From NCBI RefSeq assembly GCF_023015905.1, contig NZ_JALKBD010000013.1:62001-126000 (forward strand): DNA of 64,000 nt, in the 5' to 3' direction. The DNA comes from Arenibacter sp. F20364. Its GTDB lineage: Bacteria > Bacteroidota > Bacteroidia > Flavobacteriales > Flavobacteriaceae. A program made the translations under genes and the position numbers. Of the stretch, positions 23,532 through 40,292 are shown in pieces; position 1 is the first letter of the stretch, and every line of letters begins with the position of its first letter. Under the pieces are notes generated by a model that was given only the letters and a program-made list of their open reading frames with translations, ran no database searches and was not told where the DNA came from.

Positions 23532-24929
23532 ATGATTACCAACGACAACATCATTGCTTTGGCCACTCCCTCAGGTGCCGGTGCCATAGCTGTAATCCGT
23601 ATTTCCGGTAAGGATGCCATAGCCTTGGCCAACCCCTTCTTTGCATCGATCCGAGGCAAAGATCTAAGAAAGCAAAAAAGCCATACTATTCACTTGGGGC
23701 ATATTACAGAAAACGATAAGGTATTGGATGAAGTTTTGGTATCCTTATTTAAAGGTCCCCACTCCTACACAGGTGAAGATGTTGTTGAGATATCCTGTCA
23801 CGGTTCCCCCTATATTCAACAACAGATAATTCAGTTGTTTTTGCGAAATGGTTGCCGAATGGCCAATGCTGGCGAGTTTACACTGCGTGCCTTTTTAAAC
23901 GGCAAGATGGACTTGAGTCAGGCAGAGGCCGTAGCGGACCTTATTGCCTCGGATAACGAGGCCAGCCACCAAATAGCCATACAGCAAATGCGTGGCGGGT
24001 TTAGCAACGAGATCAAAAAGTTAAGGGACCAATTGCTGAACTTTGCCTCCCTTATGGAATTGGAGCTGGACTTCGCAGAGGAGGATGTGGAATTTGCGGA
24101 CCGTACACAGTTTAAAAAACTTTTGACCAAGATACAGCGCATTCTTAAACGCCTTATAGATTCATTTGCTGTTGGCAATGTGATCAAGAACGGAATTCCC
24201 ATAGCTATTGTTGGAGAACCTAATGTAGGCAAATCGACTCTGCTCAATGCCCTTTTAAATGAGGAGCGGGCCATTGTGAGCGATATAGCAGGAACCACTA
24301 GGGATACCATTGAGGATGAAATTGTAATTGAAGGCATAGGATTTCGGTTTATAGACACCGCCGGAATAAGGGATACCAAGGATGTAGTAGAAAGCATAGG
24401 TATTAAAAAGACCTTTGAAAAAATAGAACAGGCCCAGGTGGTGGTGCTATTGGTTGATGCCTGGGAAATGGCAACCCATGCTGATAAGTTGCAGACAAGC
24501 ATCAAAGAACTTGAAAAAATAAAAAATAAATACCCCCAAAAACCCTTGTTGGTGATTGCCAATAAGGTAGATAGGTTGGATAAGGAACAAATCAAGGATC
24601 TAAAATCAAAAATTTCGGGACTGCACTTGCTGTCTGCCAAAACTGGAAAAGGGGTGGAAACCCTAAAATCGCGCCTGTTGGATTTTGTAAATACGGGAGC
24701 CCTGCGCAATAGCGAAACCATTGTAACCAATACCAGACATTACAGTTCCCTTCTAAAGGCCTTGGAAGAAATAGAAAAGGTACAATTTGGTATGGAGGAG
24801 GATACCCCCAGCGACCTTTTGGCCATAGATGTCAGGGAAGCCCTTTACCATTTAGGGGAAATCACGGGGCAAGTGACCAATGATGAGCTTTTGGGAAATA
24901 TTTTTGCTAATTTCTGTATCGGCAAATAG
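23532..24929 (+). CDS. mnmE: tRNA uridine-5-carboxymethylaminomethyl GTPase MnmE
   Basis: With MnmG it modifies the wobble uridine of certain tRNAs. The ATG at 23532 (MITNDNIIALATPSGAGAIAVIRISG) is the family start; an upstream ATG at 23472 is less likely. 465 residues: N-terminal tetrahydrofolate-binding domain, helical domain, inserted G domain (G1 GEPNVGKST, G2 GTTRDT, G3 DTAG, G4 NKVD) and the invariant C-terminal FCIGK. Those last codons (24912-24929) are the attachment site of the island that follows; SGI1-type islands use the same trmE site in enterobacteria. Confidence 0.98.
   Translation: MITNDNIIALATPSGAGAIAVIRISGKDAIALANPFFASIRGKDLRKQKSHTIHLGHITENDKVLDEVLVSLFKGPHSYTGEDVVEISCHGSPYIQQQIIQLFLRNGCRMANAGEFTLRAFLNGKMDLSQAEAVADLIASDNEASHQIAIQQMRGGFSNEIKKLRDQLLNFASLMELELDFAEEDVEFADRTQFKKLLTKIQRILKRLIDSFAVGNVIKNGIPIAIVGEPNVGKSTLLNALLNEERAIVSDIAGTTRDTIEDEIVIEGIGFRFIDTAGIRDTKDVVESIGIKKTFEKIEQAQVVVLLVDAWEMATHADKLQTSIKELEKIKNKYPQKPLLVIANKVDRLDKEQIKDLKSKISGLHLLSAKTGKGVETLKSRLLDFVNTGALRNSETIVTNTRHYSSLLKALEEIEKVQFGMEEDTPSDLLAIDVREALYHLGEITGQVTNDELLGNIFANFCIGK
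24911..24929 (+). other. Attachment site copy at mnmE (att left)
   Basis: TTTCTGTATCGGCAAATAG, the end of mnmE. Differs from the right copy only at third codon positions and the stop. A perfect 16-bp palindrome CATATGATATCATATG follows at 24940-24955. Confidence 0.8.
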
Positions 24930-25040
24930 ACAGTGGATTCATATGATATCATATGGTTGCAAATGACTGTAAATCAAATGATTGTTGATAACTCTATAGA
25001 TTTTCTTTTCCTTTGATAAGGTGATATTCGTACTTTTATT

Positions 25041-25098
25041 GTGTCTCATGTGTGTCGCATTCTCCTTTGTATTAGACGAGACACAAAAAATGTGTCGC
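25041..25098. repeat. Candidate integrase arm-type sites near att left
   Basis: GTGTCTC at 25041-25047, GTGTCGC at 25052-25058, the reverse form GAGACAC at 25078-25084 and GTGTCGC at 25092-25098 cluster between mnmE and the integrase ATG. A related pair (GTACCTCATGTGTACCTCG) lies at 41480-41498 just inside the other att copy. The placement on both inner sides of the att cores fits arm-binding sites of a tyrosine integrase. Confidence 0.45.
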
Positions 25099-25099
25099 T

Positions 25100-26257
25100 A
25101 TGATGAAAGTTCACTTAAGGAAGAAGAAATTAAAAACTGGGAAACAGAGCCTTTATTTAGAGTTCTATAAAGGAATTAAAACTCTTAGTAATGGAAATGT
25201 TAAACACCTTAGAAATTACGAATACCTACAACTCTATTTAATAGAAGATCCCAAAACGACGGATGAAAAGAAAAAGAATCAAGAACATCTTGAATTGGCC
25301 GAACAAATACTGGCCATTAGAAAGGCTGAAGTCTATCAGGGGAAGTATAACCTTAAAAACGACACAAAAGGAAAAGTTAGTTTATTAGACTTTTACGTCC
25401 AGAAGAAAGAGGAACGCTACCAGACCAAAGGCAATTATGACAACTGGGATGCCGCACAAAAGCACATAGAAGCCTATTGTCCTGCCCACATCACTCTAAA
25501 CGATTTAGATGTTGATTTCATTAAAGGGTTTAAAAAATACCTGGATACTGTAGCCGTAACAAAAAGTAGTAAGAACCTTTCCCAAAACACGAAACATACC
25601 TATTTTAACAAATTTAAGGCTTGCCTTAATGCAGCTTTCGATGAAGGCTACCTAAAAGAAAACCTCATTAAAAAAGTCAAAGGTTTTACAATGGGGGAAT
25701 CTACTCGAGAATACCTCACATCTGATGAACTTCAAAAATTGTCACAGACCCCCTGCCCTATCCCACTTCTTAAACGAGCCTTTTTATTTTCATCCCTAAC
25801 TGGCATAAGATGGTCGGATGTCAATAAATTAAAATGGTCGGAGGTCCGCGAAGAAGGCATTGACAATATGGGAATTCCTATTTTCCGAATTGTGTTTCAG
25901 CAAAAGAAAACGGAGGGTGTAGAATATTTGTATATATCACAACAGGCCAGGGTGCTTTTAGGTGAACGTAAGGATTCTGAGGAACGTGTTTTCAAAGGGT
26001 TGCGCTATAGTGCCCACATGAACCTACAATTGCTCCGCTGGTGTATGTTTGCTGGAATAAAAAAACATATAACCTTCCATTCCGCAAGGCACACTAACGC
26101 AGTATTACTTTTAGAAAATGGCGCCGATATTTATACCGTTTCAAAACGTCTCGGACATCGTGAAATCAGAACTACAGAAATATATGCCAAAATCATAGAT
26201 CAAAAAATGAAGGAAGCTGCGAACCTACTTCCTAAGTTGAATTGGGATTTGTTGTAA
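25100..26257 (+). CDS. Tyrosine-type site-specific integrase
   Basis: A 385-residue recombinase expected to insert and excise the island at mnmE. N-terminal arm-binding (1-100) and SAM-like core-binding (about 95-195) domains precede the catalytic domain with Arg237 (LTGIRWSDV), His327/Arg330 (HSARH), His353 (LGHRE) and the nucleophile Tyr362 (TTEIYAKI). All catalytic residues are present, so it may be active. First gene of the island, 170 bp after mnmE. Typical of the Bacteroidota mobile-element integrase family. Confidence 0.95.
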   Translation: MMKVHLRKKKLKTGKQSLYLEFYKGIKTLSNGNVKHLRNYEYLQLYLIEDPKTTDEKKKNQEHLELAEQILAIRKAEVYQGKYNLKNDTKGKVSLLDFYVQKKEERYQTKGNYDNWDAAQKHIEAYCPAHITLNDLDVDFIKGFKKYLDTVAVTKSSKNLSQNTKHTYFNKFKACLNAAFDEGYLKENLIKKVKGFTMGESTREYLTSDELQKLSQTPCPIPLLKRAFLFSSLTGIRWSDVNKLKWSEVREEGIDNMGIPIFRIVFQQKKTEGVEYLYISQQARVLLGERKDSEERVFKGLRYSAHMNLQLLRWCMFAGIKKHITFHSARHTNAVLLLENGADIYTVSKRLGHREIRTTEIYAKIIDQKMKEAANLLPKLNWDLL

Positions 26258-26409
26258 TACTCTTTCAAGGTTCCAATATCACTTGGTTGATAGAATAGGG
26301 TTCTAACTCCAATGCAATTTCGTACTCTGCTGTTCCAAATTTTTCGCAATACTGTTTATTTATAAACATCTGATTGTTAACTACTTTTTAATAATCAACA
26401 TGATGTTCT

Positions 26410-26435
26410 GGTAATTAACGTCTATGTTAATTACC
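26410..26435. promoter_or_regulatory. Inverted repeat spanning the RES gene start
   Basis: A perfect 10-6-10 repeat: GGTAATTAAC (26410-26419) and GTTAATTACC (26426-26435). The predicted ATG (26424-26426) lies at the edge of the right arm, so it could be an operator or an mRNA hairpin hiding the start; alternatively translation starts later (next in-frame ATG 26493). Confidence 0.55.
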
Positions 26436-27338
26436 GATAAAATTGGGTATAGCAATTTAAACCCATATCCATCCGTAACAAACAATAATTTGATGACCCG
26501 CAAATTAAAGGATAAATTGGCAAATTTGGATTTTCGACACAGTTCTGTAGAAGAAATCGAGAAAATATTCTCTAATGAAATACTAGGTCATACTCGACCA
26601 ACTATTAATATTTCACCTGACGGACTTTTTAGAGCTCGAATAATAACCAATACAAAAGAGGACGATTTACAGACAACAAAATCAATATGGTATCCAAATT
26701 TTAGGGAAATTGACCAAAAATATCATCAGTTAAATAGATGTAGTGATATCGGACAGAATTTCTTCTACTCTTCTAATTATTTAGAAGCTGTTATAAAAGA
26801 ATTAAATCCTAAAAATGGGGATTTAATAATTATTGGAATATTCCACAAAAAATTTCCTGAGACTAAAATACGTTCTCAATATGCAGGTATTGAAGCACTA
26901 AAAACAAACCCTAAAGAAAATTCGGAATTAAAAGGCTACAAGTATATAAGCGAAAGCGACAAAATAATTGAGGAATATGTCTCATCAAAATTTCAAGATA
27001 AAGTTGCTGAAGGCGAAGAATATAAATACAAACCGAGTATCGCTTTTAGTAATATTCTCTTGAAAAATGAATGTATTGACTGTTTAATATATCCAAGTGT
27101 AGCTTCCGATTTAAAATCTGTGAATTATGGAATTAAAGCGAATTTCGTGGACAAGTTTCTTTATTGCCAAAGCACATACATTTACACCATAAAAAAGAGT
27201 GGAAACGAATTTGAACTTATCCCAAATAAATACGGAAAAAGAATAGTATTCGACAAAAAAGATGCAAAAAATTCAATAATTGAATGGAAGGAAAATAAAG
27301 CAAGTGAAAAGCAACAGACGATAAAATACTGTTTGTAA
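26424..27338 (+). CDS. RES-domain protein (possible NAD-degrading toxin)
   Basis: A 304-residue protein with a RES-like core from about residue 66 to 280. The three name-giving positions can be placed: Arg70/Arg72 in GLFRARI, Glu121 in FFYSSNYLEAVIKEL and Ser225 in LIYPSVAS, followed by the usual NYGIKANFVD. RES toxins of the RES-Xre type degrade NAD+; they usually follow an Xre/MbcA-type antitoxin gene, which is absent here. This longer stand-alone form may be regulated differently. Base composition is AT-rich compared with the next gene. Cargo of the island, directly after the integrase. Assignment rests on motif spacing, so moderate. Confidence 0.6.
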   Translation: MLITDKIGYSNLNPYPSVTNNNLMTRKLKDKLANLDFRHSSVEEIEKIFSNEILGHTRPTINISPDGLFRARIITNTKEDDLQTTKSIWYPNFREIDQKYHQLNRCSDIGQNFFYSSNYLEAVIKELNPKNGDLIIIGIFHKKFPETKIRSQYAGIEALKTNPKENSELKGYKYISESDKIIEEYVSSKFQDKVAEGEEYKYKPSIAFSNILLKNECIDCLIYPSVASDLKSVNYGIKANFVDKFLYCQSTYIYTIKKSGNEFELIPNKYGKRIVFDKKDAKNSIIEWKENKASEKQQTIKYCL

Positions 27339-27704
27339 TCGAGTGGATGGCTCCGCCATTAAATGATGGAGTGTACCCCTCCCACCAAGGTACGTGCGGG
27401 TCTCGCCCTCCCGAATGGTACGGGAAGGCCCACCTATCTAATTCGGGTAAATATACGGCGTTTCGCAAAAAGATGGGTTGAGTTCTAAGTAAACATCGGT
27501 TAATGATTGATAGCCTCGCGTTTTTAAGCGTTTTAAAGTAATGGTCGTGCCTAAAATAAGCTTCTGTGCTGTTGCCCAACCACATTTACGAGTTCTGCTC
27601 CATGCATAGGCATGGTCTTGGTTCTTGGTTCCATAAGCGTAGCGGTCTAGTTTATGTGCAACGCGATACAATCGCGCGGGAACGAGGGTTTTACACCCGG
27701 ATTT
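27339..27704 (-). mobile_element. Relic of a group II intron, 3' end
   Basis: On the minus strand a coding remnant resembling the C-terminal tail of a group II intron reverse transcriptase (27704-27438) is followed by a GC-rich structured stretch (CGCCGTATAT, CCCGCACGTACC, GGTGGGAGGGG) and ends CCACTCGATT at 27347-27338, the pattern of intron domains V-VI and the 3' boundary. It ends exactly at the stop codon of the RES gene. No intact reverse transcriptase domain remains. Confidence 0.5.
27438..27704 (-). pseudogene. C-terminal fragment of a group II intron reverse transcriptase/maturase
   Basis: An open stretch of 88 codons without a proper start: LYRVAHKLDRYAYG, then AWSRTRKCGWATAQKLIL and TTITLKRLKTRGYQSL. 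The pattern S-R-x-x-x-G-W near the end followed by T-T-x-T-x-x-R-L-x-x-R-G-Y-x-S-L resembles the end of bacterial intron-encoded proteins. The catalytic domain is missing. Assignment from memory of the family's tail, so moderate to low. Confidence 0.45.
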
Positions 27705-27794
27705 CTAGTTTAATCCTTCCCCAATGCGTTAAACAACAAACATCTTCGTTTTCAAAATAAATCCTTACCTTGAATTTCAAATTAAAAACTTAGC

Positions 27795-29222
27795 ATGATG
27801 AAGAATCCAAATACCCCTTCTGCCGGCCGACGACAATTTATCCGAAACACAACAGCCGCAGTAGGGGGTTTTGTGATACTTCCCAGGTATGTTCTTGGAG
27901 GCAAAGGATATACCGCACCCAGTGACAAAGTAAATATCGGCATTGTCGGAGCGGGGGGTCAGGGACAGAGTAATGTTCGTAATTTACTTCAACTGGACGA
28001 CGTACAGATTACCTCGGTCACAGATCCGGGTCGTTATTGGGATTTGAATCGATTCTATTACAAGTCCATTGCCGGACGGGAACCGGTCAGTGAAATGATT
28101 GAGGATCATTATCAGAAAAAAGGAGAGAACAAAGTGGTTCGTCAATATAAACGATTTAGTGAAATGATGGATAAGAAAAAAGATATCGATGCCATTCTTT
28201 GCGCTACCCCTGACCATACCCACGCCTTTATCACCATCGCTGCCCTTAAGGCAGGACTGCATGTTTTTTGCGAGAAACCCATGGCTCACAATATATGGGA
28301 AACCAGGATGGTACGTAAAGTAGTACAAGAAACGGGACTCGCCACTCAGATGGGTAACGTGGGACATAGTCGGGACGGCATGCGTTCATTGGTCGAATAT
28401 CTGCAGGATGGTGCTATCGGAACTGTACGCGAAATCCATGCGTGGGTTCCTGCAGGTCGCTGGACCCCGGGTATTACAGGTCTTCCTCAAAATACCAATC
28501 CACTTCCTTATGATTTTGATTGGGAGGAATGGTTGGGACCGTCACCATTTCGGCCCTATAACAATCTTTTTTCGCCAGTCACTTGGCGGGATTTTTGGAT
28601 ATATGGTTGCGGTGCATTGGGAGACTTTGGATGTCATGATATGGATGCACCTTTTTGGGCCTTCGATCTATCAAGCCCGTCCGAGGTTCAGATTTACCCT
28701 GCCGGACAAAGTAATAGTGAAATTGCTCCTTATGGAGAGGCCGGCACTTATCATTTTCCCGAAAGGAAGGGCCAGGCTGCACTCAAATTACACTGGTATT
28801 CCGGAGGCTTAAAACCGGATTGGAATCCCCATTTGCCACCAGATTACAAATTCGGAGGGAGGAGCGCCATGTACGTGGGCGATAAAGGGGTTATTATCAC
28901 CGATGGCGGTGATCGTTTTCCTCAGATATTCCCCGAATCCTTGAGACGATCTTATCAACCACCCGTGGAACGGATTCTGCGATCGAAAGGTCATCATCGC
29001 GACTGGGTAGATGCCATCAAAAACGGAGGGCAATCCAGTGCCAATCTTGATTATGGAAGTCGGCTTACCGAATTAACCCTGCTGGGGGTAATGTCTCTTC
29101 GCCTGAATGGTGCTCGGATACAGTGGGATGCCAAAAACATGAAAGTCAATGGACTACCGGAAACAGAATCAATCGTTAAGGAGCCATCCAATGAAGAATG
29201 GGATATTTCCAAGATTATGTAA
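27795..29222 (+). CDS. Gfo/Idh/MocA-family oxidoreductase with Tat signal
   Basis: A 475-residue NAD(P)-dependent oxidoreductase. The N-terminus GRRQFIRNTTAAVGGFVILP is a twin-arginine signal. The Rossmann motif is GIVGAGGQGQSN and the family's EKP triad is in HVFCEKPMAHN; the C-terminal sheet domain carries HDMDAPFWAF. Such exported members act on sugars or glycosides in marine Bacteroidota, some as glycoside hydrolases with bound NAD. It is richer in GC than its neighbours and sits alone between an intron relic and the mobilization module, so it is probably a late cargo acquisition. Confidence 0.92.
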   Translation: MMKNPNTPSAGRRQFIRNTTAAVGGFVILPRYVLGGKGYTAPSDKVNIGIVGAGGQGQSNVRNLLQLDDVQITSVTDPGRYWDLNRFYYKSIAGREPVSEMIEDHYQKKGENKVVRQYKRFSEMMDKKKDIDAILCATPDHTHAFITIAALKAGLHVFCEKPMAHNIWETRMVRKVVQETGLATQMGNVGHSRDGMRSLVEYLQDGAIGTVREIHAWVPAGRWTPGITGLPQNTNPLPYDFDWEEWLGPSPFRPYNNLFSPVTWRDFWIYGCGALGDFGCHDMDAPFWAFDLSSPSEVQIYPAGQSNSEIAPYGEAGTYHFPERKGQAALKLHWYSGGLKPDWNPHLPPDYKFGGRSAMYVGDKGVIITDGGDRFPQIFPESLRRSYQPPVERILRSKGHHRDWVDAIKNGGQSSANLDYGSRLTELTLLGVMSLRLNGARIQWDAKNMKVNGLPETESIVKEPSNEEWDISKIM

Positions 29223-29784
29223 ATAGGGACAGGTCACTATTATTAAATTTATAATTGCGGGAATGGAATAAAGCTATAGACAGCTTATATATTTCCAACA
29301 ACAAAAATGCTCCCCGCTAGTGCGAGCGTCACGCTCGTACTAAATCAATACACCCCAACCAGTTCTGTTTATTCTTAAGATGGGACAGCTTACCGAATAA
29401 AGAATATGGCTTTAAAATAATTTTTGGATAAGTACTTATTCAGACAAACCCAAACAAAGAAATCTGCCTTTTTTCAGTCCCAAATTCCCAACCTATTCAT
29501 TTTCAATTGTTAATAACTCTGTTTTTTACCTAAAAACATCAATTTGACCAATATAACATTTGGTCCCATTTGATGTTTTATGATATCAAATAAAATTTGA
29601 TGAAAATACCTTTACTATCAATTGGCATCATATAACACATCGCTCTATTATCCAGATAGTTGTGGATAACTATTTGTGTTTCTCATCACTTTCAGCCTAG
29701 CTATTTTCTACTTTTATTTTAACAAACCTATAGAAGGTAAACAAAAGCGCTTTTGTTCATTTCTTAATCTTAAAAGAGAAACAA
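29223..29784. other. Intergenic region upstream of the VirE operon, 560 bp
   Basis: No gene seen. It holds an imperfect hairpin AGTGCGAGCG/CGCTCGTACT at 29319-29341, probably the terminator or a REP-like site after the oxidoreductase, and the inverted-repeat cluster at 29569-29601. Confidence 0.5.
29569..29601. promoter_or_regulatory. ATTTGAT half-site cluster, candidate operator
   Basis: ATTTGAT occurs at 29569-29575 and 29595-29601, with its complement ATCAAAT at 29585-29591. The latter two form a perfect 7-3-7 inverted repeat. It lies about 185 bases before the HTH gene and may be its autoregulatory or excision-control site. Confidence 0.4.
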
Positions 29785-30072
29785 ATGGACACTATTTTAA
29801 TCTTTGATCGCTTAGATCGTTTGGAGAAACTGTTAACCGCCCATAAAGAGGTGTTGACTTTTGAGGAAACCTGTGACTACACCGGAATATCGAGAAGCTA
29901 TCTTTACAAATTGACTTCCTCCGGGACTATCCCCCACTCCAAGCCCAATGGGAAAATGATTTTCTTTGAAAAAAGAAAGCTGAACAATTGGCTCCTACAG
30001 AACAGTAGAAAATCCAAGGCCGATATCGAAAAAGAGGCCCTAAGACATACGCTCAAAAATAGACGGCCATGA
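29785..30072 (+). CDS. Excisionase-like helix-turn-helix protein
   Basis: A 95-residue DNA-binding protein with a MerR-like winged HTH of the HTH_17 type: LTFEETCDYTGISRSYLYKL followed by TIPHSKPNGKMIFFEKRKLNNWL. In Bacteroidota mobilizable elements such a gene commonly sits just before the VirE/primase genes and may act in excision or as regulator. It overlaps the VirE gene by ATGA. Confidence 0.85.
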   Translation: MDTILIFDRLDRLEKLLTAHKEVLTFEETCDYTGISRSYLYKLTSSGTIPHSKPNGKMIFFEKRKLNNWLLQNSRKSKADIEKEALRHTLKNRRP

Positions 30073-31262
30073 TAGTCGGTGACCACGGAGGTCAACTTTA
30101 CAAGGTAAAGGATGCCAAAAAAAAGACTATCTACGATTATACCATTGAATACTTGGAAGGGAAGTATGATATCATGTACAATGAGATATCCCATGATTTC
30201 CAGATATCGTTCAAACAAAGAGCTGAATGGTCCTATTTGAATCTCAATTCCCTGATCATTGAACTTGCTAAGGCAGGTATTGATATCAGTACAGGAAAAC
30301 TGGAAATCCTAATTCGGTCAGAACTCATTCCCAAATACAATCCAATAAAGGCATACTTCCAATCCCTCCCCAAATGGAACGGGGAAGACCATATCCAAAA
30401 ACTGACCTCCTACGTTCCCACCTATGATGATGAGGCTTTTCTTTACCATTTTAAAAAATGGTTGGTACGTGCCATAAAATGTGCACTGGAACCCGGCTAC
30501 TTCAACAAACAAGCCTTGATTATCAGCCATAAGGGACAAAGCTCGGGAAAATCTACCTGGTGTCGGTTTATCTGTCCTCCAGAACTTGCCGAATATATGG
30601 CAGAGGACATTAGCAATGATAAGGATGCCAGGATCCAATTATGCCGGAACTTCCTATACAACCTGGACGAATTGGCCGTGCTTACCAAAAAGGACGTGAA
30701 TGCACTAAAAGCTTTTTTTTCCAAGACCTTCATCAACGAACGTCTGCCGTATGACCGAAAGAACACTACACTACCCAGAATCTGTTCGTTTTTGGGATCC
30801 ACCAATATGTCGTCATTTCTAAACGATGAGACTGGGTCCGTACGCTGGTTGTGCTTTGAGCTAAAGGATAAAATAGATTTCTCCTACTCCAAGGAAATGG
30901 AAATCAAGCACGTCTGGATCCAAGCTTATCACCTCGCCTATCATGACCCTAACTTCAATCCAGAACTTACGCTGACGGATATTATGGAGAACGAGGTGCG
31001 CAATAAAAAATATACCAAATTGACTACCGAGGAAGAGTTGATTTCCAAATATTATGAAAAATCGAATGATATCAATGATTTTGTCACCGCCTCGGATGTA
31101 TTGGTGAAGCTGAGTAGCTTGAAGGTAAGACTGAGTCAGGTTAACCTGGGGCGTGCCCTTTCCGGGTTCAACTTCCAACGGGTGAAACATCCCAAGCGTC
31201 AAGTTTATGGATATCTGGCCAAATCGGTTTTTTCCAAGGGCCCTTGGGAAATGGAACTGTAG
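30069..31262 (+). CDS. VirE/VapE-family P-loop ATPase
   Basis: A 397-residue protein of the virulence-associated E family. Walker A is GQSSGKST near residues 153-160, followed by AEYMAEDISNDKDARIQLCRNFLYNLDELAVL (Walker B and sensor region) and the family's YDRKNTTLPRICSFLGSTN. Members are superfamily 3-like helicases or primase-helicase partners and here probably replicate the excised island with the downstream primase. Coupled to the HTH gene. Confidence 0.9.
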   Translation: MIVGDHGGQLYKVKDAKKKTIYDYTIEYLEGKYDIMYNEISHDFQISFKQRAEWSYLNLNSLIIELAKAGIDISTGKLEILIRSELIPKYNPIKAYFQSLPKWNGEDHIQKLTSYVPTYDDEAFLYHFKKWLVRAIKCALEPGYFNKQALIISHKGQSSGKSTWCRFICPPELAEYMAEDISNDKDARIQLCRNFLYNLDELAVLTKKDVNALKAFFSKTFINERLPYDRKNTTLPRICSFLGSTNMSSFLNDETGSVRWLCFELKDKIDFSYSKEMEIKHVWIQAYHLAYHDPNFNPELTLTDIMENEVRNKKYTKLTTEEELISKYYEKSNDINDFVTASDVLVKLSSLKVRLSQVNLGRALSGFNFQRVKHPKRQVYGYLAKSVFSKGPWEMEL

Positions 31263-31488
31263 AAAAAGTGCAATTGCACCTACCTACTTACCTAACGAAC
31301 CAGAACCGCTCTAACTGCGGGAGCTACCATAGGTAAGATACATTAACCACTAGTTACCTAGGTATTACCTATCCTACCTATTAGGATTAGATAGGTAAGA
31401 TCAAAAAACAACCCACCTAAGTGATCAACCCTTATAAACAGGGACTTAGGTAAGAAGGTAAGAGAAAATGCCAAAAAAGAATTAACTG
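31263..31488. repeat. Cluster of ACCTA/TAGGT iteron-like repeats, candidate replication origin
   Basis: About a dozen copies of TTACCTA or TAGGTAA variants occur in both orientations between 31277 and 31461, including the exact 11-mer ATAGGTAAGAT at 31329-31339 and 31391-31401, and the dense block around 31354-31380. A perfect palindrome GTGCAATTGCAC opens the region at 31268-31279. Lies between the helicase-like and primase genes, where an origin would fit. Confidence 0.55.
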
Positions 31489-32352
31489 ATGAAAAAAGAA
31501 AGAACTATTAAGCTGACGTGCGAAAGAGCCCGAGCTTTTCCCATCGAAAAAGCGTTGGCAAAACTCGGGCACTTTCCAACAAAAGAATCTAATAAAGAAG
31601 CTTGGTTCCTGAGTCCGTTCCGCTCAGAAACGCAAGCCTCTTTCAAGGTGTCCAAGAAACTGAACCGATGGTACGACCACGGTATTGGGAAAGGGGGAAA
31701 TGTAATCGATCTGATTTGTCTAATCAACAAAACATCGGTAAAGGAAACATTGGATTGGCTACAAAACGGTAAGATTTCTTTTTCTTTTCAGCCGCCACTT
31801 TTTAAAGAGGACAATCAAGATAAGATCGAGATAAAGTATTTCAAGGAACTGGCCCATTTTGCTCTAGAGGAATATGTAATGAAAAGAGGGATTTCAATAT
31901 TGACTGCCAGAAAACTGTGCAAGGAAGTCCACTATAGGTTTAAGGACAAGATGTATTTCGCCCTAGGATTAGCGAACAATTCCGGAGGTTGGGAACTGCG
32001 CAACAAATACTATAAGAATTCCAGCTCCCCAAAAGATGTCACTCAACTCCAGAACGCAAACAGTAGGCTGATAGTTACCGAAGGAATGTTCGATATGTTG
32101 AGCCTAATGGAACGGGACAATGAACTAAGGGAGAGGAACGATCTTCTGATATTGAACTCCCTGGGTTTTATAGAAAAAACGCTTGAAATGTTTGACCCCT
32201 ATGAATCAATTGCGCTTTATCTAGACAATGACCGTGCAGGAAGAAATGCCGTTAAAATAATGATGCAACAACAGTCAAAATGTACAGACAGATCAACATT
32301 ATATGAGAATTTTAAAGACGTAAATGGATGGTGGACCGCTCAAAAGAAATGA
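31489..32352 (+). CDS. Toprim primase-like protein (DnaG-type, degenerate zinc finger)
   Basis: A 287-residue protein. The N-terminus (WFLSPFRSETQASFKVSKKLNRWYDHGIGKGGNVIDL) matches the CHC2 zinc-finger domain of DnaG but lacks its metal-binding Cys/His set. A Toprim domain follows with LIVTEGMFDMLSL (Glu) and IALYLDNDRAGRNAV (DxD). It likely primes replication of the excised or transferred element. The usual gene between VirE and Mob genes in Bacteroidota mobilizable elements. Confidence 0.9.
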   Translation: MKKERTIKLTCERARAFPIEKALAKLGHFPTKESNKEAWFLSPFRSETQASFKVSKKLNRWYDHGIGKGGNVIDLICLINKTSVKETLDWLQNGKISFSFQPPLFKEDNQDKIEIKYFKELAHFALEEYVMKRGISILTARKLCKEVHYRFKDKMYFALGLANNSGGWELRNKYYKNSSSPKDVTQLQNANSRLIVTEGMFDMLSLMERDNELRERNDLLILNSLGFIEKTLEMFDPYESIALYLDNDRAGRNAVKIMMQQQSKCTDRSTLYENFKDVNGWWTAQKK

Positions 32353-32455
32353 TCTGATGATAATGATATTTTATACCGAAAAATAAATAACCTATTAATA
32401 AATACAATTTTAACACATAAAAGAAATAATCTGATAGTGATGTAATTCAAGATGT

Positions 32456-32505
32456 GTCTTTGTTGCCACAAAGACGATCTTGCTTTGCTCCCGAAGGTCG
32501 CAAAG
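32456..32505. other. Candidate origin of transfer (oriT)
   Basis: A perfect 8-4-8 inverted repeat, GTCTTTGT-TGCC-ACAAAGAC (32456-32475), is followed by CTTTGC (32483-32488) and its complement GCAAAG (32500-32505). It lies directly upstream of the mobC-like and relaxase genes, where MOBP-type elements keep oriT. The nick position is not determined. Confidence 0.5.
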
Positions 32506-32514
32506 ACGTAAAAA

Positions 32515-32811
32515 ATGAAACGTACCTATGTTAAATTTCGATGTTCCCTCTTCGAGAAGAAGTTGCTCCGGATCAAGGCCAAAAAGAGCGGTCTGAGCGT
32601 GAGCGAATATTGCCGGCGTGCAGCTTTTGGAGATAAAATTATTGAACGGTTGACCGAGGAACAAATTGAACTCTATAAGATGTTGGCAAGGTACGGGACC
32701 AACTTTAAACTCATCGGGAACATGTACCGAAAACGGGATCCCAAACTGACGGCCGAGGTGACAAAGCTAGCAGAAGAAATACGGAACCACCTTTATAATT
32801 TCAAAAAATGA
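32515..32811 (+). CDS. mobC: MobC-like relaxosome accessory protein
   Basis: A 98-residue basic protein with a ribbon-helix-helix style N-terminus (YVKFRCSLFEKKLLRIKAKKSGLSVSEYCRRAAFG) and a helical tail ending in the MobC-like NFKLIGNMYRKRDP...VTKLAEEIRNHL. Expected to bind oriT and assist the relaxase. The ATG of the relaxase overlaps its stop (ATGA). Confidence 0.85.
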   Translation: MKRTYVKFRCSLFEKKLLRIKAKKSGLSVSEYCRRAAFGDKIIERLTEEQIELYKMLARYGTNFKLIGNMYRKRDPKLTAEVTKLAEEIRNHLYNFKK

Positions 32812-33677
32812 TAGGCATAGGAAAATCAATATCGCATACCGGAAATTCCATGAGTTATGGCTGGAACAAGGAGAAACAAGCAGAGGTCGTATACTCCAAT
32901 CACGTGGCTGGGCAAACCCCAAACCAGATTACCAAAGAGTTCAACATCATCCAATCCCAGAACTATCAATGCAAAAAGAATACGTTGAGTTTTGTCATCA
33001 GCCCTACGATTGAAGATGGAAAACAGCTAAAAGCCAAAGAGCTCAACGAGATGACTGCAAAGTTTCTCAAGGAAATGAAATTACAGGAACATCAGGCCAT
33101 CGCCTTTGTACATAGGAACCAACCGCATACCCATGTTCATGTGTACGTAAACCGGATCGATTTTAACGGCACTGCCTATAACGACAGTTTTATCGGGAAG
33201 AGAAGTCAGCTAGCCGCGGAACGGGTAGCAGAGAAAATGGGGCTAACCACGGTACGGGAAGTTCAACTGGAAAGATTGGAACAGTTACTGAATATAAGAC
33301 AGGAGATTAAAAATGTTCATGAAAAAGTGATGAACGAACAACGCCCCAAAGACCTGGATAACTATATCAAGCTTATGAAGGAAAAAAACGTAGTAGTCAT
33401 CCCCAGCATCAATAAGTCCAATCAGCTGCAAGGATTTCGGTTCCAATACAAAGGCCACAACCTAAAAGGAAGTGAGGTACACCGTTCCATGTCCGGCAGC
33501 AGATTGGTGATGGGAATAGAAAAACATGTGGCGAGGAGCTTCCAGCAAGGCCAAAGCAATACTGTAAACCTCATGGGAAAGGCCACTCAGCTCAGTGGGA
33601 ATATCGCTATAAAACTGGCTAAATCAGTCATCAAACAAGCGATTCAAAAAGGTGCAGGAATGGAAATAGGATATTAA
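32808..33677 (+). CDS. Relaxase/mobilization nuclease (MOBP-like)
   Basis: A 289-residue nuclease that would nick oriT and lead the strand during conjugative transfer. The metal site is HRNQPHTHVHVYVNRID (His102, His107, His109, His111 region). The catalytic Tyr is likely the one in GNSMSYGW near residue 18. The short length, without a helicase domain, is normal for Bacteroidota mobilizable elements. Needs a helper conjugation system, as none is encoded here. Confidence 0.92.
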   Translation: MIGIGKSISHTGNSMSYGWNKEKQAEVVYSNHVAGQTPNQITKEFNIIQSQNYQCKKNTLSFVISPTIEDGKQLKAKELNEMTAKFLKEMKLQEHQAIAFVHRNQPHTHVHVYVNRIDFNGTAYNDSFIGKRSQLAAERVAEKMGLTTVREVQLERLEQLLNIRQEIKNVHEKVMNEQRPKDLDNYIKLMKEKNVVVIPSINKSNQLQGFRFQYKGHNLKGSEVHRSMSGSRLVMGIEKHVARSFQQGQSNTVNLMGKATQLSGNIAIKLAKSVIKQAIQKGAGMEIGY

Positions 33678-33695
33678 AATTTAAACCAAAATACT

Positions 33696-34160
33696 ATGGC
33701 AAAGCTAGATGAGATTACGGAACTGTTGACCGACGAATTGGAAGGACTAAAACAGATGTTGGTACAATTAAAAACACTAACTAAAGAACTGACCAGTTCG
33801 GAAACGGTAAAGGATATTTCCTCGACAAGGTACGAACTGAAGGAACTAAATAAAACACAGGAGGATCATTTTAAAAGGCAGGATACAAGAACCATCCAAA
33901 TAGAGGAACAATTGAAGAAGTCACAAATAATCCCTGAATGGTTATTGTTCCTGGTCTGTATGGTACTTATCCTGTCCCTATCCATTTCTGGCTATTTGGG
34001 CTATCAGGTGGCACAGTTCGGGGAAGAAAAAGAGAAGGCTTTTGAAGAGGGAAGTGCATATATTTCAACCGAATTGAAGGGGTACTTTATAGAACATCCA
34101 GAGGCCTATAAAACATTCTTGGATTGGTCCAAAAAAGAAGTAAATTCAGATCTAAAGTAG
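33696..34160 (+). CDS. Coiled-coil membrane protein of the mobilization module
   Basis: A 154-residue protein: coiled coil (residues 1-85), one membrane helix (about 88-112, WLLFLVCMVLILSLSISGYLGY) and a C-terminal acidic tail (YFIEHPEAYKTFLDWSKKE). It follows the relaxase by 18 bp and is conserved in this position in related elements, but its role is unknown; membrane contact with the helper transfer apparatus is a guess. A frameshifted copy of its C-terminal half is at 40293-40459. Confidence 0.8.
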   Translation: MAKLDEITELLTDELEGLKQMLVQLKTLTKELTSSETVKDISSTRYELKELNKTQEDHFKRQDTRTIQIEEQLKKSQIIPEWLLFLVCMVLILSLSISGYLGYQVAQFGEEKEKAFEEGSAYISTELKGYFIEHPEAYKTFLDWSKKEVNSDLK

Positions 34161-34167
34161 GTTGCGC

Positions 34168-34262
34168 CCTATGCTGTTTTTGCTTCACGCTTATCTGCCG
34201 GAACACTACAAAAACGGCACAGGAACCAAGCGCAAAGTTTTTGGGTAAGGATTTGGGACGTA
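34168..34262 (+). ncRNA. Conserved long hairpin after the mobilization module, copy A
   Basis: Left arm 34168-34182 and right arm 34209-34223 form a 15-position stem (CCTATGCTGTTTTTG with CAAAAACGGCACAGG), 26-base loop. Copy B at 40467-40543 has different arms (CCTATCCGATTTTTG with CAAAAATCGGACAGG) that still pair: stem positions 6, 8 and 9 changed on both sides. The tail AGGAACCAAGCGCAAAG through GGGTAAGGATTTGGG (to 34257) is also shared. Whether it works as RNA, as a folded single DNA strand or as a terminator is not decided. Confidence 0.55.
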
Positions 34263-34267
34263 CATAT

Positions 34268-35245
34268 CTAAAATACGATTTCCCATTTTACCTGGGCCAA
34301 TCGCCTTGACACTTCAATAATCGTCGCTAATACATCCTCTTCCTTGGGCAACTCCCCATACACCAAAAATTTAAAGTCATTCTGATAGGTGTCTTTAAGT
34401 TGTTTCCAAGTTTCTTCAGGTTCATTGTAAATCAATGCTACTTTCGGGTGGTACTTTAACCAGTCGTTGTTATTCTTAAAACTTTGTACATCATCATGGG
34501 CTACTTTTAGGAGCATCGTATCAAAGGCATCTGAAGTAAAAAACTCTTGAACCGTTTCGTCTTTCAGTAGCTGATGAATATCATATACATGCCTGATTTT
34601 AGCATTCAGGTCGATAATTGGTTTTTCCGTATGTGAGAACCGAACCAAACTCATTATCTTTTCACAAAACGTTCTTCGAGAATCCAATACAAGTGCTTCA
34701 AAAGGCAATAGATCATATTCTTCCGCCAATGTCGTTTGGTTGGTGGCATTCATCATATCATAGATATAGGTATTCAGGACTCTCTTAGTGTGAGGTTCAA
34801 AATAGCCCAGCCAAGTTGCTTCTATGATAATGGCATCTCTTACCTGTCCATAATTTCCTTTAAAAATTTTGGGATAGTTATAGGCTATCTTTCGAATCAT
34901 TCCCATTTTATTGGTAATCCCTTCCATTTCTATTTCTACGAATGGTGTAGTTATTTCCTTAGTTATTTTTTTGAGCTTAGCCTTTAATTGGTTCCCTGTC
35001 TCTTCTTCTCTTCGTATTACAACTAAATCAATATCCTCAGAAAAACGTTCGATGAATTTATAACACTTTGACAAAGCCGTGCCTCCCTTAAATATGACTT
35101 CATCTTTAATAGTGCTATCAAAGATCAGTTTTAGGGCATGGCATACCCAATAATCCTTCTCGATATAGATATCTAAAATACCCATCCGTTCTGCTGTTAC
35201 TTGCACAGCTTGTCTGAAAAGTTGTTCGTTCTCGTGCAGCTTCAT
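34268..35245 (-). CDS. AbiEii/AbiGii-type nucleotidyltransferase toxin
   Basis: A 325-residue toxin from the ATG at 35245, which overlaps the antitoxin stop (ATGA); a TTG at 35257 is in frame but less likely. The nucleotidyltransferase site is clear: FKGGTALSKCY (about residues 53-61) and RFSEDIDLVV (Asp71, Asp73). AbiEii toxins transfer nucleotides, in known cases to tRNA or by GTP binding, stopping growth and aborting phage infection. Encoded after its antitoxin, on the strand opposite to the rest of the island. Confidence 0.9.
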   Translation of the reverse strand: MKLHENEQLFRQAVQVTAERMGILDIYIEKDYWVCHALKLIFDSTIKDEVIFKGGTALSKCYKFIERFSEDIDLVVIRREEETGNQLKAKLKKITKEITTPFVEIEMEGITNKMGMIRKIAYNYPKIFKGNYGQVRDAIIIEATWLGYFEPHTKRVLNTYIYDMMNATNQTTLAEEYDLLPFEALVLDSRRTFCEKIMSLVRFSHTEKPIIDLNAKIRHVYDIHQLLKDETVQEFFTSDAFDTMLLKVAHDDVQSFKNNNDWLKYHPKVALIYNEPEETWKQLKDTYQNDFKFLVYGELPKEEDVLATIIEVSRRLAQVKWEIVF

Positions 35246-35973
35246 TTTATATTCCAATATTTAGCATTTGACAACACTTTTTTAGAAATATCAAAATCAT
35301 AAACCGTTATTGGGTTTAAACTATCTTGAAGTTCTCTTATTTCAGTCTCTGCCTTGCAATTAATCCCTCTTAGCAATGCACCCAATAAAGCTCTGGTTGC
35401 GGGGGAATATTTAAAGGCCAATTTTATAAGTTTTATATGTTCGCTAGTTTTCAATTCGCGCAATAATGCCATAAATCGAATACAACTTTTTTCAACGGTG
35501 GTATCAGGTATTTTCTTAATATAACGTATGGCATCCAACAATCGTAATAGTGGAATATTTTCCTTATTGATAGTATTCTTTTGTTTGATGAACGAAATTC
35601 TAAAACGTCCTCTTTTAAAAGAAGGTCGTATCTCACGTTTGCCTATCTGTATCGTGCTGCTTACTTGTGTGGTAAGTCCTAGGGAATTATAAACGCTATA
35701 CCCTGTAATATACCCTACTAGTTTGCCGTCTTCCTCCAACAAATCTTTTACAATTTGGTGTTGATCTGGCAACAAAGTACCGAATACAGTTTCTTGCGGC
35801 TTGAAGTATTTACCTTTAGATAGTTTATTAATCTTACCGGAAGTAGCCATTCTATTCAGATGTTTAATGATGGCTTCTCTCCTATCCACCTCGTTCATAA
35901 AATCCATATAGGTGAATACATAACCTTTGGGCAACTTATTAATCTTATCTTCTATGTATTCAGAGGTTTTCAT
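35242..35973 (-). CDS. AbiEi-type antitoxin (DUF6088)
   Basis: A 243-residue antitoxin from the ATG at 35973 (MKTSEYIEDKINKLPKGYVFTYMDF); an in-frame start at 35991 is possible. The N-terminal winged HTH (residues 1-70) is followed by a C-terminal helical antitoxin domain; GYITGYSVYNSLGLTTQ and KRGRFRISFIKQ are typical of the DUF6088/AbiEi family. AbiEi proteins repress their own operon by binding inverted repeats; two strong palindromes are present upstream (36001-36036 and 36136-36163). Confidence 0.88.
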   Translation of the reverse strand: MKTSEYIEDKINKLPKGYVFTYMDFMNEVDRREAIIKHLNRMATSGKINKLSKGKYFKPQETVFGTLLPDQHQIVKDLLEEDGKLVGYITGYSVYNSLGLTTQVSSTIQIGKREIRPSFKRGRFRISFIKQKNTINKENIPLLRLLDAIRYIKKIPDTTVEKSCIRFMALLRELKTSEHIKLIKLAFKYSPATRALLGALLRGINCKAETEIRELQDSLNPITVYDFDISKKVLSNAKYWNIK

Positions 35974-36000
35974 TGGAAACTGTTTATACAAAGATATTCA

Positions 36001-36036
36001 ATATGTCCAGTTTATTAGTTAAAAAACTGGACATAT
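36001..36036. promoter_or_regulatory. 13-bp inverted repeat, candidate AbiEi operator 1
   Basis: ATATGTCCAGTTT (36001-36013) and its exact complement (36024-36036), 10-base spacer, 28 bases upstream of the antitoxin ATG. Confidence 0.65.
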
Positions 36037-36135
36037 TTCAATAAGTCTTGATAACTTTAGTTGCAGTATTGCTTAGTGCATTCGTAACCTAGCTGTTCCA
36101 TTCTTTCTTCCGAAACATTACTAAACGGTCAACAG

Positions 36136-36163
36136 GTCAAGTTTTTTGCGCAAAAAACTTGAC
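36136..36163. promoter_or_regulatory. 28-bp perfect palindrome, candidate operator 2
   Basis: Left half GTCAAGTTTTTTGC and its exact complement without spacer. Its half-site GTCAAGTTT resembles GTCCAGTTT of the repeat at 36001-36036, so both may bind the same protein, probably the AbiEi antitoxin. Confidence 0.55.
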
Positions 36164-36299
36164 ATTTAAAGTAAAGATATTTCCCAATCTTATTTGATGG
36201 CTGTCCCGTTAAAGTCAACATATATTGACAATAGCTTATTTGACGCTTGTTTGATACGAATAGTATAAGAACTTTCGCATTACAATTCCATGTTCCTAT

Positions 36300-36332
36300 G
36301 GAAGTTGAAAAACCTACGGTTTTCCAACTTCC
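36300..36332. repeat. Hairpin upstream of the primase-helicase gene
   Basis: GGAAGTTGAAAAACC (36300-36314) pairs with GGTTTTCCAACTTCC (36318-36332): 15 positions with one mismatch and a 3-base loop. Role unknown. Confidence 0.5.
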
Positions 36333-36477
36333 TAAGCACCGCGCATAAACGAATGGAGTGCAAAAAAACGCTCCAAGCAGTTATCTTGCCTATGCACAGT
36401 TAGCTCTACAACGACCCAAATTATAATCACTAATTTATTGCTATTTTTACTCCAATTGCGAAGTAACAATAATAGCC

Positions 36478-39453
36478 TTGGAATCGGAAAATAAAGAACA
36501 TATTCAATTGTTTAAGTCCCTATTCAGAGGAAGGGATGATGTTTTTGCCATTCGATGGGAGAAAGGAAACAAAAGTGGCTATATGCCCGCCTACTTTTAC
36601 GACCCCTACCGATATAGGCTACATAAAACCAATGGGGGAACATTTAAGGATTTTACCGAAAAATCTTTTTTGCCTTTAAACTACAATCAAGTTTTTAAAC
36701 ATTTAGAAGGCGAACATTTGATTGGAGTTTACCCTTTGCTAAAAGACAATACCTCCTGGTTTATAGCCGCGGATTTTGATAAGGAAAACTGGCAACAGGA
36801 ATGCAAAAATTTTATCTCAGTTTGTGAGTCCAACAATATACAGGCATATTTAGAGCGTTCCCGTTCTGGAAACGGCGGACATGTTTGGATATTTTTTGAA
36901 ACACCCTATCCCGCTAAAAAAAGTAGATTAGTTTTTAAACAGTTGCTCGAAGAAAGTGGAACCTTTTCCATATTCGATAAGACTTCAAGTTTTGATAGGT
37001 TGTTCCCCAATCAGGATTTTCTTACGGGAAAGGGTTTGGGCAACCTTATAGCCCTGCCATTGTATAAACCGAACGTAGAGGAAGGCAATAGTTGTTTTAT
37101 CGACCCCAACACGCTTGTTCCTTATGAGAATCAATGGAGTTTATTAAAGAAAATCAAAAAGATAAAAACCGCCGAACTTGATGAATTGTATCGTTCAATC
37201 GTTAAAAACGATGCGGACGAATTGGAAAACTCTTTTTCCGGCGATACACTTGTCATCCGTTTGGATAACGAAATCCGAATCAATAAGACCGGGTTGACCA
37301 CGCCATTGGTTAATTTTATAAAGGATACATTCAACGTGGCCAATCCCGACTATTTCATAAAGAAAAAGATAGGAAGAACAACGTGGAGTACCGATAGATA
37401 TTTCAATCTTGTTTCCGAATCGAAAAATGAAGTTCTTCTTCCGAGAGGGGCTGTTGGACAATTACTGCGATTTTGTAACAAACAAAAAATTGATTTCGAA
37501 TTTGAGGATAAAAGAAAAAAATCCAATGACACACATTTTACTTTCGGCACAGAACTGCTGGAGCATCAGAAAACCGTTCTTTCTGCTGTTTCCAAAAAAG
37601 ATTTTGGCGTAATTACCGCACCTCCCGGATCTGGAAAAACAATAATTGGACTAAAAATAATTGCTAATAAATGCCAACCAGCATTAATAGTCGTACACAG
37701 AAAGCAGCTTTTGGACCAATGGATAGAACGTATAGAAGCTTTCTTGAAAATACCCAAAAGTGCAATTGGGAAAATAGGACAGGGAAAAGCAAAAATAGGA
37801 AAGCAAATTACAATAGCAATGATCCAAAGTTTGTCCAAAAAAATAGACACTCCTGAAATACTCGAGAAATTTAAAACCATAATCATCGATGAATGTCATC
37901 ACATTCCCGCCCAATCCTATGCTTCCACTATTTCCAAACTTCGCCCCTATTTCCAGTATGGTCTAACTGCCACCCCTTTCAGAAAAAATAGCGACGGTAA
38001 ACTGATTTTCGCCTATTTGGGCGAACTTATAACAGACATCAAGCCGCAGGACATAGAAACCTATAAGAAGGCACGGATTATCGTAAGGAATACAAACTTG
38101 GAAGTTCCCTATAATTCAAAAACGGATACGTTCGAAACCTTGTCAAAAGTTCTGGTACATGATTCCGATCGAAACAAAAGAATAGTTGACGATATTACTT
38201 CAGAAGTGAATACAGGCAAACATGTGGTCGTAATCACAGAACGAAAAGAACATATTACCACACTATATCAGTTTTTAAAACAAAAATTCGAGGTTATTGC
38301 ATTAAGCGGAGAAGATTCCGAAAGTGAAAGAAATTTAAAATGGAAAATCCTTAACAAAGGAAATTATCAAATTTTAATTACCACAGGACAGTACTTTGGA
38401 GAAGGCACCGATCTGCAAAATGCGAGCTGTCTTTTTTTGGTATATCCCTTTTCTTTTAAAGGAAAACTGATCCAATATATTGGAAGGGTACAACGTTCCG
38501 AAATCGCCCCATTGATTTATGATTACAGGGATCATAAGATTGAATATCTTAATCGCCTTTTTCTCAAAAGAAACACCTATTACCGAAATCTGGACAGACA
38601 GGCTACCTTATTTGACGATACCCCCGACGCCATTCCCAAGACACAAGCAAGTAGTTCAATGGCGGCAACTATAAAAGTACCTATCGAGCAGCTCTATTTC
38701 CGTTTCGGTACAATTGCATTTACCCACAAAAGTTCCAAGCTACAAAAAGAATTAGAATTCGAGATTGAGAATGATTATATACGTCCAGAGTTTGAGGTGC
38801 TTAAGCCGTATTTTGTTAAAGTAATGGATTCCAAAACCGTAGAAATAACAGTTTCCGCTGAATTTGAAAACAATGTTTTAGTTGCACAATTGGCAACTTC
38901 CAGAGACTTGGAAAGGATAAACCGTGAAGTCTTGGAAAGTGTAAGATTCAGGCTCTTAGAGAAAAGTTTTTTTAGTAAAAAATCAAACTCTGAGGATGAA
39001 TCCGATATTGTAAAGGATAAAGAAAGACTACAAGCACTTTATCCATCGGAAAAAGAATTGTTGGAGGAAGTCCTTTCAAAGAGAAGTGTAAAACATTTTC
39101 GCCAGCTTCGCTTTCTGGCCGACAATCATGCACACGCGATTTTAAAGCTTCGATTTGTGCTTCAACCATTTTCCTTTGTTTTCTTGTTGTTGGGCAATCA
39201 CCAATTCCATGTGATTTTGGAAACTTTGGATACTGAAGAAGCGACTTACATTTGGCATTTCAACAAAAATAACCCATCCTTTAAGGAACATCTAGCTTCT
39301 GTCGATTCGGCTTTGAATACAATTAAAAATCAGGGCAGGCAGTTTTATTTGGAATCTCAACCCGTAAACTTTAGCCGAATTATCCACGATTATTCTAATG
39401 ATAGTAAGGGTTTTATTCAATGGAGGGATGCGTTAGAAGAAAAACTTTACTAA
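36478..39453 (+). CDS. Archaeo-eukaryotic primase fused to SF2 helicase (TOTE conflict-system type)
   Basis: A 991-residue protein. Residues 1-330 hold an archaeo-eukaryotic primase core: catalytic FIAADFD (Asp99, Asp101) and SGNGGHVWIFFE (His135). Residues 355-710 are a DEAD/DEAH-type helicase: Walker A APPGSGKT (about 381), IIDECHH (about 469), GLTATPFR, and motif VI QYIGRVQRS (about 666). The C-terminal 280 residues are unassigned. Family databases use the name TOTE conflict system for this primase-helicase, thought to act in genome conflict with mobile elements. The start is TTG at 36478; no ATG in frame fits better before the conserved region. It lies among AbiE, ParDE and HigBA genes. 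Confidence 0.85.
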   Translation: MESENKEHIQLFKSLFRGRDDVFAIRWEKGNKSGYMPAYFYDPYRYRLHKTNGGTFKDFTEKSFLPLNYNQVFKHLEGEHLIGVYPLLKDNTSWFIAADFDKENWQQECKNFISVCESNNIQAYLERSRSGNGGHVWIFFETPYPAKKSRLVFKQLLEESGTFSIFDKTSSFDRLFPNQDFLTGKGLGNLIALPLYKPNVEEGNSCFIDPNTLVPYENQWSLLKKIKKIKTAELDELYRSIVKNDADELENSFSGDTLVIRLDNEIRINKTGLTTPLVNFIKDTFNVANPDYFIKKKIGRTTWSTDRYFNLVSESKNEVLLPRGAVGQLLRFCNKQKIDFEFEDKRKKSNDTHFTFGTELLEHQKTVLSAVSKKDFGVITAPPGSGKTIIGLKIIANKCQPALIVVHRKQLLDQWIERIEAFLKIPKSAIGKIGQGKAKIGKQITIAMIQSLSKKIDTPEILEKFKTIIIDECHHIPAQSYASTISKLRPYFQYGLTATPFRKNSDGKLIFAYLGELITDIKPQDIETYKKARIIVRNTNLEVPYNSKTDTFETLSKVLVHDSDRNKRIVDDITSEVNTGKHVVVITERKEHITTLYQFLKQKFEVIALSGEDSESERNLKWKILNKGNYQILITTGQYFGEGTDLQNASCLFLVYPFSFKGKLIQYIGRVQRSEIAPLIYDYRDHKIEYLNRLFLKRNTYYRNLDRQATLFDDTPDAIPKTQASSSMAATIKVPIEQLYFRFGTIAFTHKSSKLQKELEFEIENDYIRPEFEVLKPYFVKVMDSKTVEITVSAEFENNVLVAQLATSRDLERINREVLESVRFRLLEKSFFSKKSNSEDESDIVKDKERLQALYPSEKELLEEVLSKRSVKHFRQLRFLADNHAHAILKLRFVLQPFSFVFLLLGNHQFHVILETLDTEEATYIWHFNKNNPSFKEHLASVDSALNTIKNQGRQFYLESQPVNFSRIIHDYSNDSKGFIQWRDALEEKLY

Positions 39454-40170: not shown

Positions 40171-40292
40171 AATTCAATCAAACGTTAGAACTCTATATCT
40201 CTCCCCCTACCCTAAACTATCAACTATAGAGGTCTCTTAAAGAAGTTTAATATATTATTAAACCTTAACGTTACAAGTTATCAACTTTAGTT

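Follow-up and report, generated by a model that had tools for sequence, protein, structure and literature searches.

A candidate iteron replication origin between the vapE and primase genes of a mobilizable element in Arenibacter

Short repeats crowd the spacer between a helicase gene and a primase gene in Arenibacter sp. F20364, within the 64,000-nucleotide stretch analysed here (the window). What are these repeats for, and which protein would read them? An earlier note on this DNA took them for iterons of a replication origin. We arrive at the same view: with a probability of roughly 0.8, the 226-bp spacer (31263–31488) is an iteron replication origin of a mobilizable element, recognised by the adjacent VapE helicase and similar to the origins of SaPI/PICI and SCCmec elements, except that it has no AT-rich block. 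This is the best supported of the readings considered, and it draws on repeats present in 71 of 74 related spacers, on their co-variation with a winged helix of VapE, and on the occurrence of VapE with iterons on autonomous plasmids.

The spacer lies, as the note had it, between genes for a helicase and a primase, inside what is likely an integrative mobilizable element of ∼16.6 kb bounded by candidate att sites. An integrase, a candidate att repeat and a relaxase are all encoded there, and an imperfect direct repeat of the trmE end (15 of 18 bases) at 41536 is the likely far end of the element. The main features are as follows.

24911–24929, no strand: candidate attL at the 3′ end of trmE/mnmE, core TTTCTGTATCGG
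25100–26257, plus strand: tyrosine integrase (domain match), adjoining the 3′ end of trmE
29785–30072, plus strand: HTH_17 protein upstream of vapE, Xis-like or a regulator (domain match; no co-variation with the motif)
30069–31262, plus strand: VapE-like helicase of 397 aa, the proposed initiator (PF05272; 7pds PriRep1 by sequence profile and fold)
31023–31238, plus strand: winged helix of VapE, residues 319–390, the proposed iteron-binding domain (predicted structure; co-variation with the motif)
31263–31488, no strand: proposed origin, the iteron spacer between vapE and the primase gene (repeat counts, alignment, shuffles)
31489–32352, plus strand: CHC2 zinc-finger/Toprim primase (domain match)
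32515–33677, plus strand: NikA-like accessory protein and MobA/VirD2-type relaxase, the mobilization module (domain match)
41535–41553, no strand: candidate attR, with 15 of 18 bases as in 24912–24929

No packaging gene was seen among the element proteins scanned; the relaxase and NikA are present instead. The island also carries a 991-aa protein (36478–39453) whose N-terminus matches PADLOC PrimPol (E 2e-67) and which includes a helicase part; its sequence indicates a PrimPol-helicase fusion. An AbiEi/AbiEii-like toxin-antitoxin pair lies at 34268–35991 on the minus strand. A second pair, at 40669–41332, matches PADLOC PD-Lambda-2_A and _B and is a HigBA-like candidate for a defence or toxin-antitoxin system. 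A 475-aa reading frame at 27795–29222, which we take to resemble a Gfo/Idh/MocA-type oxidoreductase, is probably cargo.

The heptamer TTACCTA/TAGGTAA occurs in six exact copies, on both strands, within 31288–31453, and the hexamer TACCTA/TAGGTA in nine across the spacer. Any 226-bp stretch in the rest of the window, scanned in steps of 10, holds at most one TTACCTA and two TACCTA, so the cluster is indeed unlike its flanks. The entire 64 kb contains 17 copies of the heptamer (mean of whole-window shuffles, 9.9), with lone copies scattered in some upstream regions. In 5,000 dinucleotide-preserving shuffles of the spacer region, TTACCTA reached three copies at most, and any heptamer reached six or more in only two. 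Nine non-overlapping heptamer sites are found at no more than one mismatch, and comparison with relatives points to ∼11 positions, of which the window has two in degenerate form; the “about twelve copies” counted earlier are reached only when degenerate copies are included. An exact 11-mer repeat is present as described (ATAGGTAAGAT, at 31329 and 31391). So is a 12-base palindrome, GTGCAATTGCAC, at 31268–31279, but its sequence is not kept in relatives, being GTGCCATTGCAC in L003 and GTGCAATTCTAC in L005. The spacer is 62% AT (window, 61%), its best 30-bp stretch reaches 77%, and an AT-rich unwinding block was sought in it and not found.

The paired-site pattern TTACCTAN{2,8}TACCTA occurs four times in the whole genome (5.7 Mb), compared with eight for a reversed control pattern, and is thus not a genome-wide host motif. 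Two of its copies are in the spacer, one is in a relic copy of the module, and one is elsewhere. The relic, L021 (C54:122861–123379), retains the C-terminal part of VapE, the repeat spacer and a primase fragment.

Searches for VapE relatives gave hits in 16 of 100 related genomes, in 28 of 397 genomes of the family, and at 62 loci among genome contigs; among viral contigs, the primase and VapE had one locus each. The closest relatives that carry a name are contigs of Arenibacter, with, for example, 97% VapE identity. Removal of duplicates left 80 distinct 3′ spacers, including that of the window, 74 of which follow a VapE at least 41% identical. Of these 74 (VapE identity 41–100%), 65 have a repeat score above that of every one of 100 shuffles, and in 71 no more than two shuffles attain it. 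The counter-case named in the earlier note, replication genes intact and repeats absent, has one real exception among the 74 to show for it, namely L037 (VapE 48% identical), where 68 of 100 shuffles reach the score and three copies of AGGCAAC form no dense cluster. The remaining two are weaker rather than empty: in L061, six shuffles reach the score and TTACCTA sites still occupy their usual places; in L033, eleven do, and VapE is shortened to 361 aa. Among the six VapE-like loci below 41% identity, none has a cluster in the adjoining 3′ spacer.

The word itself differs between lineages and changes jointly at the sites inside one element: TTACCTA in some, TCCTACC in Leeuwenhoekiella, CTTACCC in L030, ATTTACC in L013, ACCCTCC in L036 and L038, and CTTGCCC in L040. 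The site order (FF, R, FF(F), RR, weak F, RR) is retained, at distances that are nearly fixed across lineages with differing words. We aligned 48 spacers (VapE at least 70% identical, TACCT motif, primase-defined spacer of 195–260 bp), in which ten named sites match at 5 or more of 7 bases in 35 to 48 loci.

31280–31294, plus strand: iteron pair F1 (31280–31286, CTACCTA) and F2 (31288–31294, TTACCTA), at 5 or more of 7 bases in 46 and 48 of the 48 aligned spacers
31330–31336, minus strand: iteron R1, TAGGTAA, 48 of 48
31354–31380, plus strand: iterons F3 (31354–31360), F4 (31365–31371) and F5 (31374–31380), 48, 45 and 44 of 48
31383–31398, minus strand: iterons R2 (31383–31389, degenerate in the window) and R3 (31392–31398), 35 and 48 of 48
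31413–31419, plus strand: weak iteron F6 (CCACCTA), positioned visually on the consensus line; the counted register, 31409–31415, gives 10 of 48
31447–31461, minus strand: iteron pair R4 (31447–31453) and R5 (31455–31461), 47 and 47 of 48

In this alignment, conservation is higher in the iteron columns than in the rest of the spacer (0.88 vs 0.63, P 1.8e-19). The orientation of the sites is nearly the same read on either strand, while their spacing is not exactly mirrored. A further sequence shared among spacers, TATAAACA, occurred in 7 of 24 representatives, which equals the best of 200 shuffles, and hence is not claimed.

VapE matches PF05272 with 120.1 bits (cut-off 25, E 1.2e-34). Its sequence profile has a single match in the PDB, 7pds, “Similar to D. 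nodosus vapE” (E 2.4e-18); this is the SaPI initiator PriRep1, the only solved relative of VapE by sequence, and the fold comparison also returned it, in complex with double-stranded DNA (E 3.3e-05, TM 0.42 by query length). AlphaFold2 predicts a winged helix at the C-terminus of VapE (98-residue model, mean pLDDT 87.3); the full-length model is poorer (67.1). Searched alone with Foldseek, the winged helix gave no match at E≤0.001, and its resemblances to Fur/Zur, RFX and P4 proteins are middling (Z≤6.9) and concern the fold only.

Which protein changes when the word changes? We compared 24 representatives, less than 85% identical to one another, using partial Mantel tests. Rows with VapE below 330 residues (L014, L021, L040, L091) or below 41% identity were dropped, as were, by choice, L033 and L037, whose motifs are unclear. 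With helicase divergence removed, motif distance correlates with winged-helix divergence (partial r 0.65, 0/999 permutations, n=24), a significance that is overstated under shared descent. The N-terminus of VapE gives 0.37 (3/999), which falls to −0.15 given the winged helix, and the helicase part gives −0.33 given the winged helix (n=24 for both). Correlations with the HTH protein (−0.06) and the primase (−0.05), given the helicase, are about zero (20 representatives each), and both were set aside as binders of the repeats. At matched helicase divergence, winged helices diverge more between differing than between same motifs (0.70 vs 0.53, 0.71 vs 0.58, 0.72 vs 0.59). The partial r for the winged helix ranges from 0.56 to 0.77 in a jackknife; it is 0.37 (3/499) when L036 and L038 are left out and 0.50 (1/499) when five deep rows are. 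That the domains of a single protein contrast in this way is a stronger argument than the Mantel significance. One row runs counter to the trend: L034 keeps the TACCT core, yet its winged helix (residues 336–397) is 27% identical to that of the window. Across these sequences, the repeat word tracks VapE's C-terminal winged helix; it follows neither the primase nor the upstream HTH gene.

VapE genes were also surveyed more widely, at 10 named plasmid or phage loci and 20 phylum-wide PF05272 loci, each with 20 shuffles, and at eight further loci. Clusters at five of the ten named loci exceed all shuffles and are taken as iteron arrays (L111, L112, L113, L155 and L157, the last 1.3 kb 3′ of vapE). 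The simplest is the 3.1-kb Microcystis plasmid p2-NIES88 (L155), one of whose two annotated genes encodes a VapE (204 bits for PF05272); at 2495–2900, CCCTACC words 3′ of vapE flank an AT-rich stretch, and no annotated gene follows. In the Flavobacterium phage FPSV-S1, GTGTAAC words immediately follow the 3′ end of vapE, and the Cardinium plasmids pCher and pcBtQ1 have GTAGTAA clusters ∼1 kb 5′ of it. In L160 it is an AT-rich word, 1.8 kb distant, that exceeds the shuffles, and this locus is left out of the count. The cluster of L114 equals its shuffles, and no cluster was found at L156, L158 (a vapE fragment) or L159. Of the phages and plasmids cited by name, phage lotta8-2 does not rise above its shuffles (5 vs 5), and phage phi12:1 and E. 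coli plasmid pSCU-121-2 have no cluster near their VapE genes.

Among the phylum-wide loci, seven of 20 exceed all their shuffles (L137, L140, L143, L145, L152, L153, L154), and the other 13 have no nearby cluster above them. L140, L152 and L154 belong to the genome studied here; L154 is its second, DUF5906/VapE-like helicase (C22 near 19753), with an ACGATGA array of its own at the 3′ end. Three of the eight further loci exceed their shuffles (L001, L107, L110). The clusters sit at the 3′ end of the VapE/DUF5906-type gene in L137, L143, L153 and L154, and that of L001 is likewise 3′ of a DUF5906/VapE-like gene; the array precedes a Toprim/CHC2 primase in L143 and a primase relative in L001. 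Several VapE loci have no nearby cluster, and the pairing is therefore not universal at the distance and sensitivity used.

Could the cluster instead be an operator, through which VapE or some other protein of the element regulates transcription of the primase and mobilization genes, with the origin elsewhere? It lies just upstream of the primase gene, iteron binding and autoregulation are often coupled in iteron plasmids, and single TTACCTA copies occur upstream of other genes (e.g. at 29526, before the HTH gene). However, ∼11 near-palindromic sites over 180 bp exceed an ordinary operator, and the cluster is kept at loci where no primase relative was found beside vapE (L031, L035, L036, L038). 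The Flavobacteria-type promoter consensus has no match in the spacer, a second cluster near the start of the vapE operon was found in none of 55 loci scanned, and on the two-gene Microcystis plasmid the cluster is followed by no annotated gene at all. We regard an operator as unlikely.

A cis site for excision or conjugal transfer, such as an accessory recombination site or an oriT, would suit a mobilizable element whose NikA and relaxase genes lie 1 kb downstream, and the primase region of NBU1 of Bacteroides reportedly matters for excision. The candidate att sites are, however, ∼6 and 10 kb off (24911 and 41535), and no relaxase is annotated in the stretch or record examined of FPSV-S1 and the Microcystis plasmid, both of which have iterons linked to VapE. 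In addition, the motif follows VapE and not the Xis-like HTH protein, in a test that covered the HTH protein and the primase; such a site is decidedly improbable. Least probable, and already disfavoured, is a by-product, either a non-functional repeat family or a structured RNA in the intergenic transcript. The window does allow short GC-rich inverted repeats, and hairpins in two spacer gaps (e.g. CCGC..GCGG and CCCT..AGGG) seemed conserved in Arenibacter, but across 62 loci they are no better than shuffles (a median of 51 and 39 of 100 as good). Rfam has no match in 24900–42000, and the conserved heptamer keeps a fixed layout and is restricted to the spacer and a single relic.

An iteron origin read by VapE can be set beside several known systems. 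Bacteroides mobilizable transposons of the NBU1/Tn4555 type carry an integrase, a small HTH protein, a primase and a relaxase, as does the element here. The passages concerned in a listing of such transposons report no origin for them (PMC4755523). The relevant part of PMC6092414 places the PICI origin just past the 3′ end of the gene for the initiator helicase and describes an AT-rich region flanked by two iteron sets; the iterons here likewise lie immediately 3′ of the helicase gene, but the spacer has no AT-rich block between two sets. The helicase is related to PriRep1 and a primase gene lies alongside, as in SaPI/PICI elements; the primase is a separate CHC2/Toprim protein rather than a fused one, and the element is mobilizable by conjugation and, as far as seen, not phage-packaged. 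SaPI and SCCmec origins, directly downstream of the helicase gene, are described as recognised by the C-terminal domain of the helicase, and the isolated C-terminal domain of SCCmec Cch2 as binding the repeats in vitro (PMC7581432, passages concerned). The counterpart here would be the predicted winged helix that co-varies with the motif. As in Cch2, the repeats directly follow the gene of a self-loading helicase; unlike the three short iterons described there, they number ∼11 in a near-palindromic order, and the helicase is of a different subfamily. The origin-binding domain of phage P4 alpha (1ka8) is also a C-terminal winged helix on a replication helicase; at Z 4.9 and rank 43, tied with many unrelated winged helices, this match shows no specific kinship.

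We infer the initiator, its recognition domain and the layout from these comparisons, and the steps of replication as follows. The origin would be active when the element is excised (or induced), with the excised circle as template. The C-terminal winged helix of VapE, a SaPI-Rep-like AAA+ helicase, would be the part that binds the 7-bp iterons. The order FF-R-FFF | RR-F-RR, which changes little when read from the other strand, suggests two outward-facing VapE oligomers, loaded facing away from a centre near 31380; these would melt the DNA and unwind outward, and the adjacent CHC2/Toprim primase would make primers. An origin is favoured by the repeats themselves, by how they are conserved and laid out, by the parallel change of word and winged helix, and by the occurrence of iterons with VapE-type helicases on plasmids, phages and other islands. 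Against it are the missing AT-rich block, the L037 exception with the weak L033 and L061, the 0 of 6 below 41% identity, and the Cardinium iterons, which lie ∼1 kb off and 5′ of vapE, not 3′.

A broader conjecture, to which we give about even odds, is that winged helix and iteron word are a matched pair drifting together, an origin-recognition code common to mobilizable islands, phages and small plasmids. The islands would then be plasmids in integrated form, and the C-terminal ∼70 residues of VapE would predict into which of several readable compatibility groups an origin falls.

According to the passages concerned in a 2017 review (PMC5704250), the replication of excised mobilizable elements had gone unstudied. 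SGI1, also an integrative mobilizable element, has since been reported, in the parts concerned, to replicate like a plasmid (PMC7433901, PMC7826253), as is proposed here; its replication protein is of the Rep_3 type (PMC5704250), unlike the 10 element proteins scanned here, none of which matches Rep_3 at E 0.001. Among the matches listed in the literature searched (titles and starts of abstracts), no description of iterons beside VapE in Bacteroidota was found. VapE-type ATPases are called uncharacterised, merely predicted helicases in the relevant part of PMC5862659, and the present analysis gives them a proposed function. It defines a 226-bp candidate origin and names a putative initiator and recognition domain for a widespread group of Bacteroidota elements. 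The natural motif swaps among lineages make the VapE-iteron pairing directly testable, and such origins could yield replicons for marine flavobacteria.
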